Of a DNA stretch of 64,000 bases, positions 31,099 through 45,376 are shown piece after piece. Made by a program: the position numbers and the translations under genes. The DNA comes from Sphaerochaeta sp. Phil3 (GTDB taxonomy: Bacteria; Spirochaetota; Spirochaetia; Sphaerochaetales; Sphaerochaetaceae): the NCBI GenBank assembly GCA_001940825.1, contig MSGT01000071.1, positions 1-64,000 of the forward strand, written 5' to 3'. The notes under the pieces are model-generated. The model did not search any database. It was not told the origin of the DNA and saw only the letters and a program-made list of their open reading frames with translations. Every line of letters starts with the position of its first letter. Position 1 is the first letter of the stretch.

Positions 31099-31173
31099 TG
31101 GTAGCCCCACTAGGATTCGAACCCAGACTAAGAGGGTTAGAGCCTCCTGTGCTAGCCATTACACCATAGGGCA
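31099..31173 (-). tRNA. Suppressor tRNA, anticodon CTA (reads TAG)
   Basis: Folds as a full cloverleaf with encoded CCA. The D stem is GTGT/GCAC, the anticodon stem GGAGG/CCTCT has loop CTCTAAC, so the anticodon is CTA, and the T arm is CTGGG, TTCGAAT, CCTAG. Pair 1-72 is T.T, so the helix end is weak as in tRNA-Gln, and the discriminator is A. It is on the late strand just upstream of terminase. It can decode the in-frame TAGs of all genes to its left. Gln as the inserted residue is inferred from TAG positions in collagen-like and M15 motifs. Confidence 0.92.
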
Positions 31174-37255: not shown

Positions 37256-37571
37256 ATTACAGTGTTATCTAAAGTAAGAGTAATTATAATGGCTTACTTA
37301 TGATATAGAACTTATTAGTCTGTATTAGTAACCCCTCTTACTCCCCTATAAACGTCTCATACTATGTGTTAGTTACCATTTCTTTAACATTTATTAACAA
37401 CAATTATGGCTATTTAACTTCAATATTTTAACAATTTTTAACAAAAAAATTTTTATAGAGAAAGCCCGCGTGTGTGGAGTACCAAACTTCAGGGACCCCC
37501 TATACGTATTCGGGCGAAGACACCCCGATAGGAACATCAGAATTCAAATCTAAATTTAGGAGGACAAAATT
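37256..37571. promoter_or_regulatory. Divergent control region between late and early blocks
   Basis: 316 bases without a gene, separating leftward and rightward transcription. It has TTAACA-type units at 37,390-37,445, an A/T run, then a structured leader (GCCCG at 37,464 can pair with CGGGC at 37,522) that ends in AGGAGGACAAAATT before the ATG. The promoters for both blocks should lie here; standard Bacteroidetes TTTG / TAnnTTTG boxes are not evident, so a phage-specific polymerase may be used. Confidence 0.6.
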
Positions 37572-38033
37572 ATGAAGAAATTATTTGTTTACGGCGCTGA
37601 GGTCTTGAAGGACAAGGATGACAATGACTATGTATTGTTATCTTTATTAGCTGAAGAAGACGGTGTAATGGCGTCTGGTATGTACAGTAAGGCTATTTTT
37701 GAGAATGCCAAGACTCGTACAGGCTTCTTGTACAAACAAGTAGAGAAGAGGTTGAAGGACAATGACAAGTGGGAAGGCGACATTGACGACCCAAGCACTT
37801 GGATTACGACTGTAGGTGAAGTAGTGACTCTGGATATGAGACCTCACTACGTTACTTATGAGGAAGGTGGGAGGAAGAAGTATCGTAAGAGCCGTAATGG
37901 GGAAAAGGCGATATCTAACCGAGCTACCGTTGTGATGCTGCCTGGTGAGACTGTTGCCAGTCTTAGAGCCAGTCTTGAGAGCCGTATCGACGAGGACGAT
38001 TTCGTTGAAATGTCTGACGACTCTGACGAATAA
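37572..38033 (+). CDS. First early protein, acidic C-terminus, unknown
   Basis: 153 aa. It has a strong Shine-Dalgarno (AGGAGG, 7 bases before ATG), rare in Bacteroidales phages, a GC-richer body than neighbours and its own terminator, all signs of heavy early expression. The N-terminal part is beta-rich (KKLFVYGAEVLKDKDDNDYV), and the C-terminus is acidic (DEDDFVEMSDDSDE), as in some ssDNA-binding or host-takeover proteins. No family recognised. Confidence 0.75.
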   Translation: MKKLFVYGAEVLKDKDDNDYVLLSLLAEEDGVMASGMYSKAIFENAKTRTGFLYKQVEKRLKDNDKWEGDIDDPSTWITTVGEVVTLDMRPHYVTYEEGGRKKYRKSRNGEKAISNRATVVMLPGETVASLRASLESRIDEDDFVEMSDDSDE

Positions 38034-38061
38034 GAGTTAGGGCTAATGCCCTAATCTTATT
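38029..38061 (+). terminator. Intrinsic terminator after first early gene
   Basis: AATAAGA-g-TTAGGGC pairs with GCCCTAA-TCTTATT (14 bp, one bulge) around TAAT, followed by CTTTT. It overlaps the stop codon and makes the first early gene a separate unit. Confidence 0.85.
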
Positions 38062-38101
38062 CTTTTGCATTAATCTATAAACATCTCATAATCACTACAA
38101 T

Positions 38102-38197
38102 ATGGCAGAAGCAGTCGACTGGATTTACACAATCTTTTGGGTAGGAGTGTTGGTTTGGCTCATGTACTCCACTTATGACAATGAATTTCGTAAGTAG
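38102..38197 (+). CDS. Small membrane protein
   Basis: 31 aa (AEAVDWIYTIFWVGVLVWLM then YSTYDNEFRK) ending in TAG at 38195. One membrane span. If TAG were read as Gln here it would add about 13 residues; the TAG stop agrees with early use of the standard code. Confidence 0.5.
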   Translation: MAEAVDWIYTIFWVGVLVWLMYSTYDNEFRK

Positions 38198-38262
38198 ATT
38201 TTGTTATCCTTACAATATATAGCGAATTTAGTATTTTAATATCAATTTAAACTATCAAAGTC

Positions 38263-38346
38263 ATGTTAGGTGTAAAACGCAAAATCAATAGAATATGGAT
38301 ACTAAAAACAATTATCCAAGTGACAAAGAGTTTGAAATATGCTTAG
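38263..38346 (+). CDS. Tiny basic protein with TATCAA start motif
   Basis: 27 aa (LGVKRKINRIWILKTIIQVT ...), ATG 38263 preceded by TATCAA with a 4-base gap, the motif seen before five other early genes; ends in TAG. A second frame overlaps it (38295-38405). Confidence 0.4.
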   Translation: MLGVKRKINRIWILKTIIQVTKSLKYA

Positions 38347-38405
38347 TAATAGCAACATTCTTACTCATAGCAAGTATCGTATCCTACCATTTATTTGGAA
38401 TTTAA
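38295..38405 (+). CDS. Small membrane protein, overlapping frame
   Basis: 36 aa (DTKNNYPSDKEFEICLVIAT then FLLIASIVSYHLFGI), TAA stop. One C-terminal membrane span. It overlaps the 27-aa frame; one or both may be real. Confidence 0.45.
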   Translation: MDTKNNYPSDKEFEICLVIATFLLIASIVSYHLFGI

Positions 38406-39580
38406 CGTGGATGTAAGGTAGCCTATAGTCAGTGACAAGCCTGTATAAATACTGAGTCAAATAAGTAATATAGTGTACTATCTCGCTTCTAATGCACATA
38501 GGAGTATAAGCTAAGGTAGACAGATATGTTACTAATCCACGTGGTAGATGCACAGTTAGGTTCGCTGTGAGTGCACATCTTAGTAGCAACCAACTAAAGC
38601 AAACATAAGGAATATAGCTATACCTCGACAGGCTTAATGAGGTGTTTGACAGTATGATACTAACTGAACAATAAGTATCAGCTTTTTATTCTGAGTAGTG
38701 TAGTCGCATCTGAATCCGCTGTCGGTGCGAACACTTTCAACCATAAGACGGATGAGTATCTTCCCTGGACAAGAAGAATACAATAATTAAGTTCCAATAT
38801 AAATAGAGTAAGAGAAAATGAGGCGGTATATCTTACGTAGCTCTTAGCATAGCTTATGGTGGTGTTTTCCATAGCCATATTAATGCGCTTACTCTATTTC
38901 TACACTGTGTGAATCAGTGTCAACTTTGTGGGGCTTATATTCAGAGCGCACATATGAAAGTGCTTTTTATCAATAGAAGGTGAAATGATTGCAAGCGTTA
39001 GCCGGAAATTCTTTTAAAGTAACACATATGCTGATATTAGTGCAGAGAAATCAAAGACAAATTGTAATATATAGCTACAGATTACAATTAGTAAAAAAAC
39101 TCAGAGGTCAACTGCCTCAGATAGCAAAAGTGTTAGTGGTAGCAGAGTAATACTACCACGCTCCTTAAGGTGAGAATCCTTGACAAGCATGTGGGGCTTA
39201 TATCTATCTATAAACAAGGAGACGGACTAATTTTTATTAGTACAAGGAGTCGGTTATAGTAGTATTAGTGCAGACTTTAAAATCATGCAGTATAACAACC
39301 TTCCATATACTAATACAATAGTGAACTTCTGAATCATGTTATACTTATTAGTCCTAAGCGTAGGATAGTCCTCAACTTATTATGTTCCGTTAGCTTAATA
39401 TGGATTTGTAGAATACTAAGAGTAGTATTGCTAGTATATTTATATGTGAATATAGGTATACTAGTTGCACTCATAAGGCAGCCTTCACGTGGCAAGTGTG
39501 TTAAGTAATAGGTTAAATAAATCTTCCAGTTTGTACCTATGAAAACTAATGCCTTACTTTTTATTAACAATTTAATCAAT
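38405..39580 (+). ncRNA. Large structured non-coding RNA, about 1.2 kb
   Basis: No gene fits here in any frame on either strand, yet the tract is packed with perfect stems: 38405-12 with 38535-42; 38801-12 with 38888-99 (12 bp); 39062-68 with 39081-87; 39136-42 with 39153-59; and 39262-68 with 39310-16 crossed by 39289-96 with 39338-45, which makes a pseudoknot. A 14-base sequence TGTGGGGCTTATAT occurs twice (38927, 39190). It lies upstream of a tRNA gene. Size, density of helices and phage context resemble the GOLLD and ROOL classes of large ornate RNAs; membership is not shown. Confidence 0.7.
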
Positions 39581-39585
39581 AAATT

Positions 39586-39777
39586 ATGATAGAAACAATA
39601 GCAACACTAATTACTGTACTTTGTGGTATATTATCATTAATAATAGTAGCTTGTACTATACAAGCACCATATTCAAAAACAGTAAACAATATACTTAAAA
39701 CATTATTTATAATAAGTACTATTAGTGGAGGAATAGCAATTAGTTCAATAATAATAAGATTATTAATAATTTATTAA
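39586..39777 (+). CDS. Two-span membrane protein
   Basis: 63 aa with hydrophobic segments at about 5-27 (TIATLITVLCGILSLIIVAC) and 40-62 (LFIISTISGGIAISSIIIRL). TAA stop. Could be holin-like or part of superinfection control; no family evidence. Confidence 0.6.
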   Translation: MIETIATLITVLCGILSLIIVACTIQAPYSKTVNNILKTLFIISTISGGIAISSIIIRLLIIY

Positions 39778-39784
39778 CAGCAAT

Positions 39785-39869
39785 GCTCAGATGGCGAAAT
39801 TGGTAGACGCTTCAGACTTAAACTCTGATGATTATTACAATCATGCGGGTTCGATTCCCGCTCTGAGTA
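39785..39869 (+). tRNA. tRNA-Leu (anticodon TAA)
   Basis: Class II cloverleaf: acceptor GCTCAGA/TCTGAGT, anticodon arm TCAGA-CTTAAAC-TCTGA giving anticodon TAA, variable arm GATTATTACAATC, T arm GCGGG-TTCGATT-CCCGC. It decodes TTA, abundant in this AT-rich genome. No encoded CCA. Confidence 0.9.
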
Positions 39870-39895
39870 CATTCATTAACTTAAAAACAATAATT

Positions 39896-40099
39896 ATGAG
39901 AGCAAAGAAATCAATTCGAGCATGGGTAGCAAGAGAAAAAAATGGAGCGTTATTTTTGTTCTGTGAAAAACCAAAAAAGCGTAAATCTTACTGGATAAAT
40001 TTAAATACGTTCAATAGTCTAGTACTCCCAAAAGAAGCTTTCCCTAATGTAAAATGGGAAGATAACGAACCTACTAGAGTATATATCAGAATAGCATAG
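39896..40099 (+). CDS. Small basic hypothetical protein
   Basis: 67 aa from ATG 39896 (RAKKSIRAWVAREKNGALFL), TAG stop at 40097. The frame is open into the upstream tRNA, but that extension is a typical tRNA artefact. Beta-rich, like a single small SH3-type or DUF domain. Confidence 0.65.
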   Translation: MRAKKSIRAWVAREKNGALFLFCEKPKKRKSYWINLNTFNSLVLPKEAFPNVKWEDNEPTRVYIRIA

Positions 40100-40100
40100 T

Positions 40101-40403
40101 ATGACAATCAGAAGAAGTTATTCAAATAGTATACTCACAAGTATCAGTGAATTTTTAATTGCATTAATTATAATATTAATAGCAACAGTATCAATAAGTA
40201 AATATTGCGCAGACTATGATTATTATAATTATGTAGAACTTAAAGCACAATATAAAAACTATATTGTGACTAATAAGTACGTACGGAACTCAGACACTTA
40301 TGTGTTAGAACTCATGAACCCTTTTAGTAAAAAGACTAAAGAGGTATATGTTAGAGATTATCTATATTATAATACTTATTTTGTAGGAGATACTATAAAA
40401 TGA
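40101..40403 (+). CDS. Membrane-anchored early protein
   Basis: 100 aa. Hydrophobic span at about 14-32 (LTSISEFLIALIIILIATVS), then a beta-rich outer domain (YKNYIVTNKYVRNSDTYVLE). ATG follows the previous TAG by one base. Possibly a superinfection-exclusion-type protein; inference only. Confidence 0.6.
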   Translation: MTIRRSYSNSILTSISEFLIALIIILIATVSISKYCADYDYYNYVELKAQYKNYIVTNKYVRNSDTYVLELMNPFSKKTKEVYVRDYLYYNTYFVGDTIK

Positions 40404-40591
40404 AAAAAGTTAGAGCACACTATAAAGGTAGGTATTATTACTTAGGTAGAGCTAAGAACTTAGAAGAAGAACTCAATTTAAAAAGAGATTTTCTAAGACA
40501 AATAGCTAATATACCTAAAGAAGATATAGAATTATTTCGTAAAAGGTTTATAATCAAAAATAAAACAGTAAAATTCATAAGAAATGTTTGA
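40400..40591 (+). CDS. Small basic early protein
   Basis: 63 aa (KKVRAHYKGRYYYLGRAKNL ... TVKFIRNV). ATGA overlap with the gene before it. Unknown role. Confidence 0.6.
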   Translation: MKKVRAHYKGRYYYLGRAKNLEEELNLKRDFLRQIANIPKEDIELFRKRFIIKNKTVKFIRNV

Positions 40592-41504: not shown

Positions 41505-41910
41505 AGTAATAAACATCTTGTTTTTTTAAGTTAAAGTATACTCAGTCTGTGAAGATAGAGTGTACGTCCTCAGAAGATGACAAACCTGTGGGGCGTAAGT
41601 AAATGCATATCGTATATTATTCCCTTGAATACGGCAATAGTGGGTAATATCCGAGATACTCGTATTTGTGTTTATAATCGTGCAGACGTTAAAATCAGGT
41701 ACTCCAATAAGATTAGTTTGACAGCTATTTCTGATTATGAGTTAAAACTATTTGAGAGTCAGTAGAAGTGTGTCTTTTTTATTAACAAATGATACTTTCA
41801 TAGGACAACAATGTATAGTATTTTTTAGTTGGTACTAACTTAAAACAAAATCCAGAGTACCCTGGTCGTCGTCAAAAAACAATTATTAACAATTTAAAAA
41901 TATTAGTATT
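41505..41910 (+). other. Gap of about 400 bases, probably structured RNA
   Basis: A 62-aa frame (41577-41765) exists but has no good start context and a composition unlike neighbours. Hairpins such as GTATACTC/GAGTGTAC (41,536-41,561) and ATACG..CGTAT, a CTGTGGGGC element like that in the 38.4-39.6 kb RNA, and a T run (41,774) argue for an RNA or terminator. Confidence 0.4.
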
Positions 41911-44106: not shown

Positions 44107-44210
44107 TATCCAAACAGGTTAGTGTTTATGGGGAAATTTGGGTGGAAACCGTTAGGTTTGCCAGGAGAAATTGGACGCCACAAAGACCTGAATTAACAGG
44201 TCTCATTTAG

Positions 44211-44218
44211 TATCTTTG
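44211..44218 (+). promoter_or_regulatory. Second Bacteroidetes-type -7 box before RNA genes
   Basis: TATCTTTG again, 112 bases after the first and preceded by a perfect hairpin AGACCTG/CAGGTCT (44,184-44,203). It could start the transcript that carries the intron and tmRNA-like gene, using host RNA polymerase. Confidence 0.55.
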
Positions 44219-44630
44219 TATCAGTAATGAGGAACTACTGTGTACTACTGATCATATGTCTGGGATCGCGACAATAAGATTGTCCCGCATTAGTAATAAT
44301 GCTGAACTGCCTTAGTCGAGATATCAAATCAGACTGAATAGGTGTATCTTGTATCATTTACGTTGCTAAGGATCGAACCACGTAAATCCTATTCATATAT
44401 TATCAAGATCAGTATAAGAGAACTAACCATTCTCAAGACCATAGGGTATATAGCTTTGGTCGGCTATATACCCACAAATTTTTTGATATTGATATTTCCT
44501 ATGTTAATATGGGAAAATCATATGTATGCACCTGATTGGTTCATAAAATGGATAGATAAAATGCATTAAAGAAATTGACTGTTAGGTCTATTAAATCGTC
44601 GTTTGGACACGGGTTCGACTCAGAGGGTCG
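44219..44630 (+). other. RNA leader / 5' exon region
   Basis: Contains hairpins ATCAGTA/TACTGAT (44,220-44,254) and GACAAT/ATTGTC (near 44,270-44,284). A 75-aa frame from GTG at 44,342 has one possible membrane segment but no usual start context; not called. A GGGTTCGACTC stretch at 44,612 resembles a T loop but has no matching stem. Probably the upstream exon of the intron below. Confidence 0.35.
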
Positions 44631-45376
44631 CTTATATAGAAATGTATATGACAAAATTGGGTGAATTCAAGGAAAGCTAAATAAAAAGCTCAAAATCAGC
44701 TTTTTACATGCCAATCTTGAGCTAAGCTTAGAGTACACTCTAAGAAAGTGCAGAGACTACTGGAGAACTATAGTGTTCTTAATTACCAGCTAGAGCGCCC
44801 AACATCTTAAGCAGCATTACTGCAAGATGAAGAAATAGTCCGTAGATAAACAAGTTCTTTTAACTTGTCCTCTGAAAGGAGGTTTCTGTGTGATAGTCGA
44901 TGACAATTAGGACAAAGAGTTATTAAATTATTCATCTCATTTTTACCACCTTTACATACTGGCAAAATGTGATGAATATCTCTTGGACCTAAATTCCATC
45001 CACAATTCGCACAGGGTAATTCTAATAATATATTTTGTAACTTTCTTGTGCCATTTTGCTCTGTGACAATTAGTTGTCTATAATGTTTACTTTTACATTT
45101 ATCAGAACAATATTTAGCTTTTGGATTAACTGATAAAAATTCATTGTTACATACAATACATTTACAGTGTTTCAAAGGTTTATTTGCATTACGACTTTTT
45201 GCAGCACAAGATAAACTACAAAACTTAGCGTTACCACGATTTAACTCTCTTGTATCTGCCATAAAAATTTTATGACAGAATTCACATTCTTTTTCTATTA
45301 ACATAATTAATAAATATTTATGTTATAAAAACGTATGTGGAGATAGAAAGTTCTAATTGTTGTAAAATATTTAGCC
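44631..45376 (+). other. Group IA-type self-splicing intron
   Basis: The conserved core elements appear in order: GGTGAATTCAAGGAAA (44,660), CAATCTTGAGC (44,712), R element GTGCAGAGACTA (44,748-44,759) and S element AAGAAATAGTCC (44,830-44,841), with P7 pairing GACTA/TAGTC, plus AAAAAGCT/AGCTTTTT (44,683-44,705). This is the core of phage group IA introns. Ends are approximate: the 5' splice site is near 44,630 (a TTAT/ATGTA P1) and the 3' end near TTTAG 45,373. An antisense HNH gene fills the P7-P9 part. The exons do not form a gene I could name. Confidence 0.75.
44807..45304 (-). CDS. HNH homing endonuclease with zinc ribbons, antisense to the intron
   Basis: 165 aa, ATG 45304 to TAA 44807. 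Two N-terminal Cys clusters (CEFCHKIFMADTRELNRGN with CSLSC, and CKCIVCNNEF with CSDKC) precede an HNH domain: CANCGWNLGPRDIHHILP and NLITLCPNCHRLSHR, with the His pair and two CxxC zinc knuckles. It is encoded opposite to the intron, and its C-terminal codons overlap the P7 S element, so intron core and protein share DNA. It should spread the intron by cutting intronless sites. Confidence 0.85.
   Translation of the reverse strand: MLIEKECEFCHKIFMADTRELNRGNAKFCSLSCAAKSRNANKPLKHCKCIVCNNEFLSVNPKAKYCSDKCKSKHYRQLIVTEQNGTRKLQNILLELPCANCGWNLGPRDIHHILPVCKGGKNEMNNLITLCPNCHRLSHRNLLSEDKLKELVYLRTISSSCSNAA

Follow-up and report, generated by a model that had tools for sequence, protein, structure and literature searches.

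A gene-free tract on the forward strand of a crAss-like phage genome (positions 38405-39580 of the 64,000-nucleotide stretch of DNA analyzed here, hereafter the window) is a row of separate RNA modules and not a single giant RNA. The tract probably acts as a processing and RNA-module array within a rightward operon, the polycistronic transcript of which would cleave itself and leave upstream pieces that end in hairpins. The identity, order and strand of the modules, their covariation and the hairpins in front of the predicted cuts were all computed directly. The ribozyme classes involved are already known; new are their arrangement and their home, together with several unnamed RNAs.

Judged by its sequence, the window derives from a crAss-like phage of the Suoliviridae, near Buorbuivirus. 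The nearest named record, uncultured phage cr4_1 (NC_055893; Crassvirales; Suoliviridae; Loutivirinae; Buorbuivirus hominis), matched window positions 30-54 kb with 98.3% identity across 94% and positions 38200-40000 with a lower 87.7% across 86%, the two values coming from different BLAST modes. The drop at 38200-40000 is explained in part by a missing ORF (39586-39777) and a diverged part after the second hatchet ribozyme. As the original prediction held, no convincing gene lies between a 36-aa ORF, with its stop at 38405, and the ORF at 39586-39777; table 11 ORFs inside the tract are short and largely antisense. A tRNA-Leu(TAA) identified by ARAGORN (39785-39870, +) is a downstream neighbor but no constant partner of the array. 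Outside the tract, cmscan placed a group I intron at 44609-44860, and a weak RAGATH-20 match (44185-44267, 29.7 bits) lies immediately 5' of it; RAGATH-20 was strong in two of the sequences used for comparison (L024 and L026). The leftward genes of the window (1-31200, minus strand) are long only with TAG read-through (1203, 1016 and 935 aa), and beside them lies a tRNA with a CTA anticodon (31099-31173; tRNA-Pyl according to ARAGORN), observations that point to stop-codon recoding in this half of the window.

Positions 37500-40500 were searched with cmscan against all 4227 Rfam families, using permissive filters and E<=10. The tract holds four matches to small RNA families, all on the + strand, while the models for GOLLD, ROOL, OLE and HEARO gave no match in this search. 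RAGATH-7 RNA (RF03159; 38464-38680, +) scored 159.8 bits (E 1e-36) against a gathering threshold of 111.8, the match spanning the whole model (positions 1-208 of 208). Beyond the bin itself, RAGATH-7 was found in none of 139 genomes of the bin's order. Farther along the same operon lies a RAGATH-9 RNA (RF03146; 43141-43302, +; 134.4 bits). Both RAGATH RNAs and three hatchets score well over gathering and share the + strand with the downstream genes.

Hatchet 1 (38898-39056, +; 75.5 bits; predicted cut between C38900 and U38901) and hatchet 2 (39161-39288, +; 95.6 bits; predicted cut between C39163 and C39164) lie in the tract, and hatchet 3 (41566-41700, +; 89.3 bits; predicted cut between C41568 and C41569) sits between two genes of the array's own operon. 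All three are members of the family by score, exceeding the curated gathering threshold of 51 bits. The 14-base element TGTGGGGCTTATAT, originally noticed as being used twice, indeed occurs at 38927 and 39190 and is the conserved hatchet core (a motif also given as TGTGGGGC). Hatchet 1 has orthologues in L004, L006 and L010; it lacks four nucleotides of the 3' consensus, and the L006 and L010 copies are also shortened. Of 16 related virus records, 13 carried at least one hatchet, versus none of 14 control genomes. Every one of the 23 hatchets examined has TC at model positions 2-3 and hence C at position -1 of the predicted cut, matching the published cleavage of a C-U step at the base of P1 (PMC6154101, PMC4604424). 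A near-perfect inverted repeat with 18 nt per arm and no spacer (39057-39092) was also seen between the two hatchets of the tract.

All 23 hatchets possess a 7-14 bp stem, counting G-U pairs, that ends 1-4 nt 5' of the predicted cut. Such a P0 hairpin has been described for about 90% of hatchets, without an apparent role (PMC4604424, PMC6154101). The pre-cut stems differ in sequence at orthologous sites: for hatchet 2, whose P0 hairpin occupies 39136-39159 (+, GTGGTAG/CTACCAC), stem sequences differ among the window, L005, L006, L007, L008 and L010. The P0 of hatchet 1 is module B, which is described below. Taken singly, P0 stems gave shuffle p values of 0.005-0.57, often not small. The elements share with the hatchet ribozyme (RF02678; PMC4604424) the sequence core, the P1-P4 fold, the C before the predicted cut and a P0 just upstream, but differ in forming a tandem pair with a third copy 2.4 kb on, an arrangement found likewise in crAss-like genomes that are complete and named; the class was described in 2015 from metagenome fragments only, without any completely sequenced genome (PMC4604424).

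A divergent type-P1 twister-like ribozyme is located at 38391-38464 (+; Rfam match 38410-38462; predicted cut between U38414 and A38415). It is labeled twister-like, and not a twister member, because its score of 33.9 bits (E 7e-5) is half of the gathering threshold of 67.2. Features shared with the type-P1 twister (RF03160) are the UAA, CAAG and GAG core, P4, and a pseudoknot of the CCC/GGG type, which is UGAC/GUCA here and UGGC/GCCA in L027. Among eight copies, P4 covaries (CAG/CTG, ATCG/CGAT, GCCG/CGGT, ATACG/CGTAT), as does the T1 pseudoknot in two forms (TGAC/GTCA, TGGC/GCCA), and in six relatives, too, a copy stands directly 5' of RAGATH-7. In addition to its score, the element departs from the type-P1 twister in P1, which in the Rfam register is weak, with two non-standard pairs; by inspection, a 7-bp TTATTTG/CAAATAA stem outside the core could serve instead, with about 16 nt inserted. 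Since P1 is interrupted in the window, the activity of the element is uncertain.

Many long-range stems had been predicted for the tract, and such stems exist, but its folding energy is not better than that of dinucleotide shuffles (mean z of 0.0, versus -0.73 for the rest of the window, n=105); stems alone are therefore no evidence, and comparative data are needed. The predicted 12-bp stem was found at about 38799-38812/38888-38899 with a 75-nt loop (shuffle p 0.015) and is the stem of module B. For the pseudoknot proposed at 39.26-39.35 kb, two crossing 8-bp stems exist (39262-39269/39309-39316 and 39289-39296/39338-39345), of which relatives support one arm but not the other. The second belongs to a variable stem-loop immediately 3' of hatchet 2 (AGTATAAC/GTTATACT; 39289-39345, +), and its support comes from the different perfect stems of 9-11 bp that replace it in L007, L009, L008 and L010. 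The first requires ACTAATAC, a sequence shared only by the near-identical L005 and missing from L004 and L007-L010; because the conserved 3' strand of hatchet 2 supplies the 5' half of this stem, the pairing is probably due to chance. As a whole this pseudoknot was rejected, the first stem being unconserved and such that it would disrupt hatchet 2. A pseudoknot supported by comparison lies instead in module C.

Three conserved modules without an Rfam match, B, C and D, bear out in part the suggestion of a new RNA class; the structures of all three modules were derived from the sequences that also served to test them. Module D (about 38740-38795, +) is a conserved stem-loop with the loop CCTGGACAA and a TGGA/TCCA pairing between the loop and downstream sequence. 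It recurs in L010, where the pairing becomes TGGG/CCCA, and in L023 (Steigviridae, another family), the evidence being weak because it comes from three distinct sequences only. Module B (38802-38899, +) is a conserved hairpin RNA with the stem AATAGAGTAAG/CTTACTCTATT and the core AAGAGAA ... TAGCATA ... TAATGCGCTT, found in L004, L005, L006, L008, L010, L011 and the isolated Kolpuevirus L028; an isolated Bacteroides cellulosilyticus phage (OQ198718) carries it. AAGAGAA and TAATGCGCTT are invariant, and the closing stem is altered on both sides between relatives. A pattern search of IMG/VR for module B returned 9 stretches, and since the AAGAGAA part is confined to one of them (L013, a cr115 genome) the others are probably chance matches.

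Module C (39410-39556, +) consists of two hairpins and a crossing-helix domain. Its helices pair 39412-39418/39423-39429, 39431-39445/39450-39464, 39467-39472/39494-39499 and 39508-39513/39535-39540, and the crossing helix, 39475-39480/39550-39555, runs across 39467-39472/39494-39499. Among only eight related sequences, from which the structure itself was derived, 10 of 38 pairs were changed on both sides and 96.7% of cells were paired, with at least one such pair in all five helices, the crossing one included. The covariation score was 0.258, compared with 0.140 +/- 0.015 for shuffled and at most 0.071 for slid controls, and sliding the partners by 1-3 columns reduced the paired cells to 18-53%. 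The crossing helix is misaligned in L007 and L009, where GAAGAT can be paired with ATCTTC by eye. Model R1, built from eight copies, matches module C in 11 loci, always in the same slot, and adds the distant L024, L011 and L012 (E 1.6e-7 to 4.1e-5). Pattern searches for module C gave a cr115-like genome only in IMG/VR and a single isolated match, in an archaeal bin, among GTDB contigs.

Ten related loci (L004-L012, L024) from several Suoliviridae genera have the same kind of slot, 3' of a conserved ORF and 5' of a run of small genes, filled with differing sets of modules: RAGATH-6, RAGATH-14, RAGATH-7, type III hammerhead-like and twister-like elements and 0-2 hatchets. L005 has the order RAGATH-6, twister-like, RAGATH-7, B, hatchet, C and tRNA-Leu; L010 holds B, D and RAGATH-14, an element resembling hammerhead III whose 42.2 bits fall short of 48.5, a pair of hatchets, C and tRNA-Leu; and L007 holds a twister-like element, RAGATH-7, a hatchet and C. 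BLAST segments between relatives end at or near module borders. Modules are thus gained, lost and reordered while strand and slot stay constant, and this reshuffling, with a ribozyme class that can be exchanged, suggests that cleavage is the kept trait. By analogy, the varying class in a constant slot is in line with a view put forward for other loci, in which a self-cleaving RNA may be needed whatever its class (PMC10085705). Covariation, the absence of which would have refuted the original proposal, was found in the relatives (comparison set of eight to eleven sequences). The RAGATH RNAs (RF03159 RAGATH-7 and RF03146 RAGATH-9; relatives RF02686 RAGATH-6 and RF03145 RAGATH-14) resemble the known families in their full-length, above-gathering matches but differ in being interchangeable parts of one genomic slot alongside ribozymes.

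Through this array the phage transcript is probably cut by itself into defined pieces. In the mechanism we propose, the twister-like element and the hatchets would cleave the nascent polycistronic transcript at 38414/38415, 38900/38901, 39163/39164 and 41568/41569, giving downstream 5'-OH and upstream 2',3'-cyclic-phosphate ends, as described for hatchet cleavage (PMC4604424, PMC6154101). Each hatchet cut would fall directly behind a P0 hairpin, so that the upstream piece would end in a stem, which should slow 3'-5' exonucleases. A 486-nt piece would carry RAGATH-7 along with D and B, hatchet 1 would lie on one of 263 nt, and a third would open with hatchet 2 and module C before continuing into the next small gene and the tRNA-Leu. 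We infer that these cuts take place during phage growth and that they would serve to fix where the RNAs end, and thereby how stable the pieces are and how strongly they are expressed. A bolder proposal, which we offer tentatively and consider doubtful, is that at least one unnamed module, be it B, whose core is invariant and whose closing stem covaries, or C with its pseudoknot, may represent a self-cleaving ribozyme or functional phage RNA of a new class, and that crAss-like phages in general may use such an array to cut early transcripts with interchangeable ribozymes.

The modules might instead be mainly 5'-UTR regulators of the adjoining small genes, acting in cis on translation, with the ribozymes secondary. 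In the window, L005, L006, L007, L009 and L010, the 3' end of module C is followed 29-47 nt later by an ATG-started ORF of at least 40 aa, and in L012 this distance is 38 nt. However, in L004 module C stops 3 nt short of the start of tRNA-Leu, with no start of such an ORF within 120 nt, in L008 there is none within 160 nt, and RAGATH-7, the hatchets and module B of the window do not adjoin start codons, so we hold this to be unlikely. The gain and loss of module blocks between relatives, the nearby group I intron and endonuclease-annotated genes in relatives would also suit mobile or neutral insertions that are tolerated between genes and bring the phage no benefit. We judge this improbable: neither a protein nor an end repeat was found to link the modules with a mobile element, covariation indicates that structure is kept, and the same strand and slot are held.

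Poorer still are the prospects of the array serving tRNA-Leu maturation, in the manner of the theta ribozymes that have been reported for gut-phage tRNAs (PMC10879173). The tRNA-Leu(TAA), originally noted for its nearness, lies downstream of the array in the window, L004, L005, L008 and L010, but ARAGORN found no tRNA in the examined stretches of L006, L007, L011, L012 and L024, which have arrays of the same kind with shared modules; this frequent absence weakens a tRNA-linked model, and in the window an ORF intervenes and the last hatchet cut lies about 620 nt 5' of the tRNA. The theta (HDV-like) ribozymes are similar in being self-cleaving ribozymes of gut phages near tRNAs but belong to another class, and the present array is without a fixed tRNA partner. 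Least probable of all, in our view scarcely credible, is a single large ornate RNA resembling GOLLD or ROOL and assembling as one unit, one of the two identities suggested originally. Like those RNAs, the tract is a sizeable non-coding stretch of a phage (about 1.2 kb without genes), is structured and has a tRNA nearby, and the call of ornate non-coding RNA was right. Yet the absence of a GOLLD or ROOL match at E<=10 on 37500-40500 speaks against that identity, and four small-family matches lie inside. The row of small modules is lost, gained and reordered among relatives, unlike one fixed fold, and the predicted self-cleavage would split the RNA.

The self-processing array that we favor bears on a wider question, as the reason for the gene associations of bacterial and phage self-cleaving ribozymes has been described as still unknown (PMC10085705). 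Complete crAss-like genomes in which hatchets, RAGATH RNAs and twisters occupy one syntenic slot offer a defined system for asking what such ribozymes are for; the hairpin-before-cut pattern offers a testable role, and the unnamed modules form a short list for ribozyme assays. A search of a limited set of papers found none joining crAssphage with self-cleaving, or hatchet with RAGATH, although an earlier notice of the crAss-like home is possible.

A further element, 43 bases that are near-identical between phages (AACTCAATAACTTCCCAAGACATTGAGGGCACCAGTTTCTTAT), is followed by a variable hairpin and then ATAAGTTTTAGGTGTAAAATGC (L010, 1378-1485). It occurs also in L005, L006, L008, L009, L011 and L022-L027, that is, in Suoliviridae and one Steigviridae phage; its front half is altered in L005 and L006, and in L023 and L027 TCC/GGA takes the place of its CCC/GGG pairing. 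It had no Rfam match worth mention at E<=10, and its CCCAAG and GAGGG motifs may hint at a permuted twister. Only the tail of the element, TTAGGTGTAAAACGCA, is present in the window (38262-38281), where it lacks the front half; it may be a relic or a separate signal. tmRNA genes were observed in L008 (7911-8272), L033 (6023-6300), L034 (4233-4467) and L035 (2556-2785), on contigs that are crAss-like or hatchet-bearing viral, and several of them match the permuted-tmRNA model.
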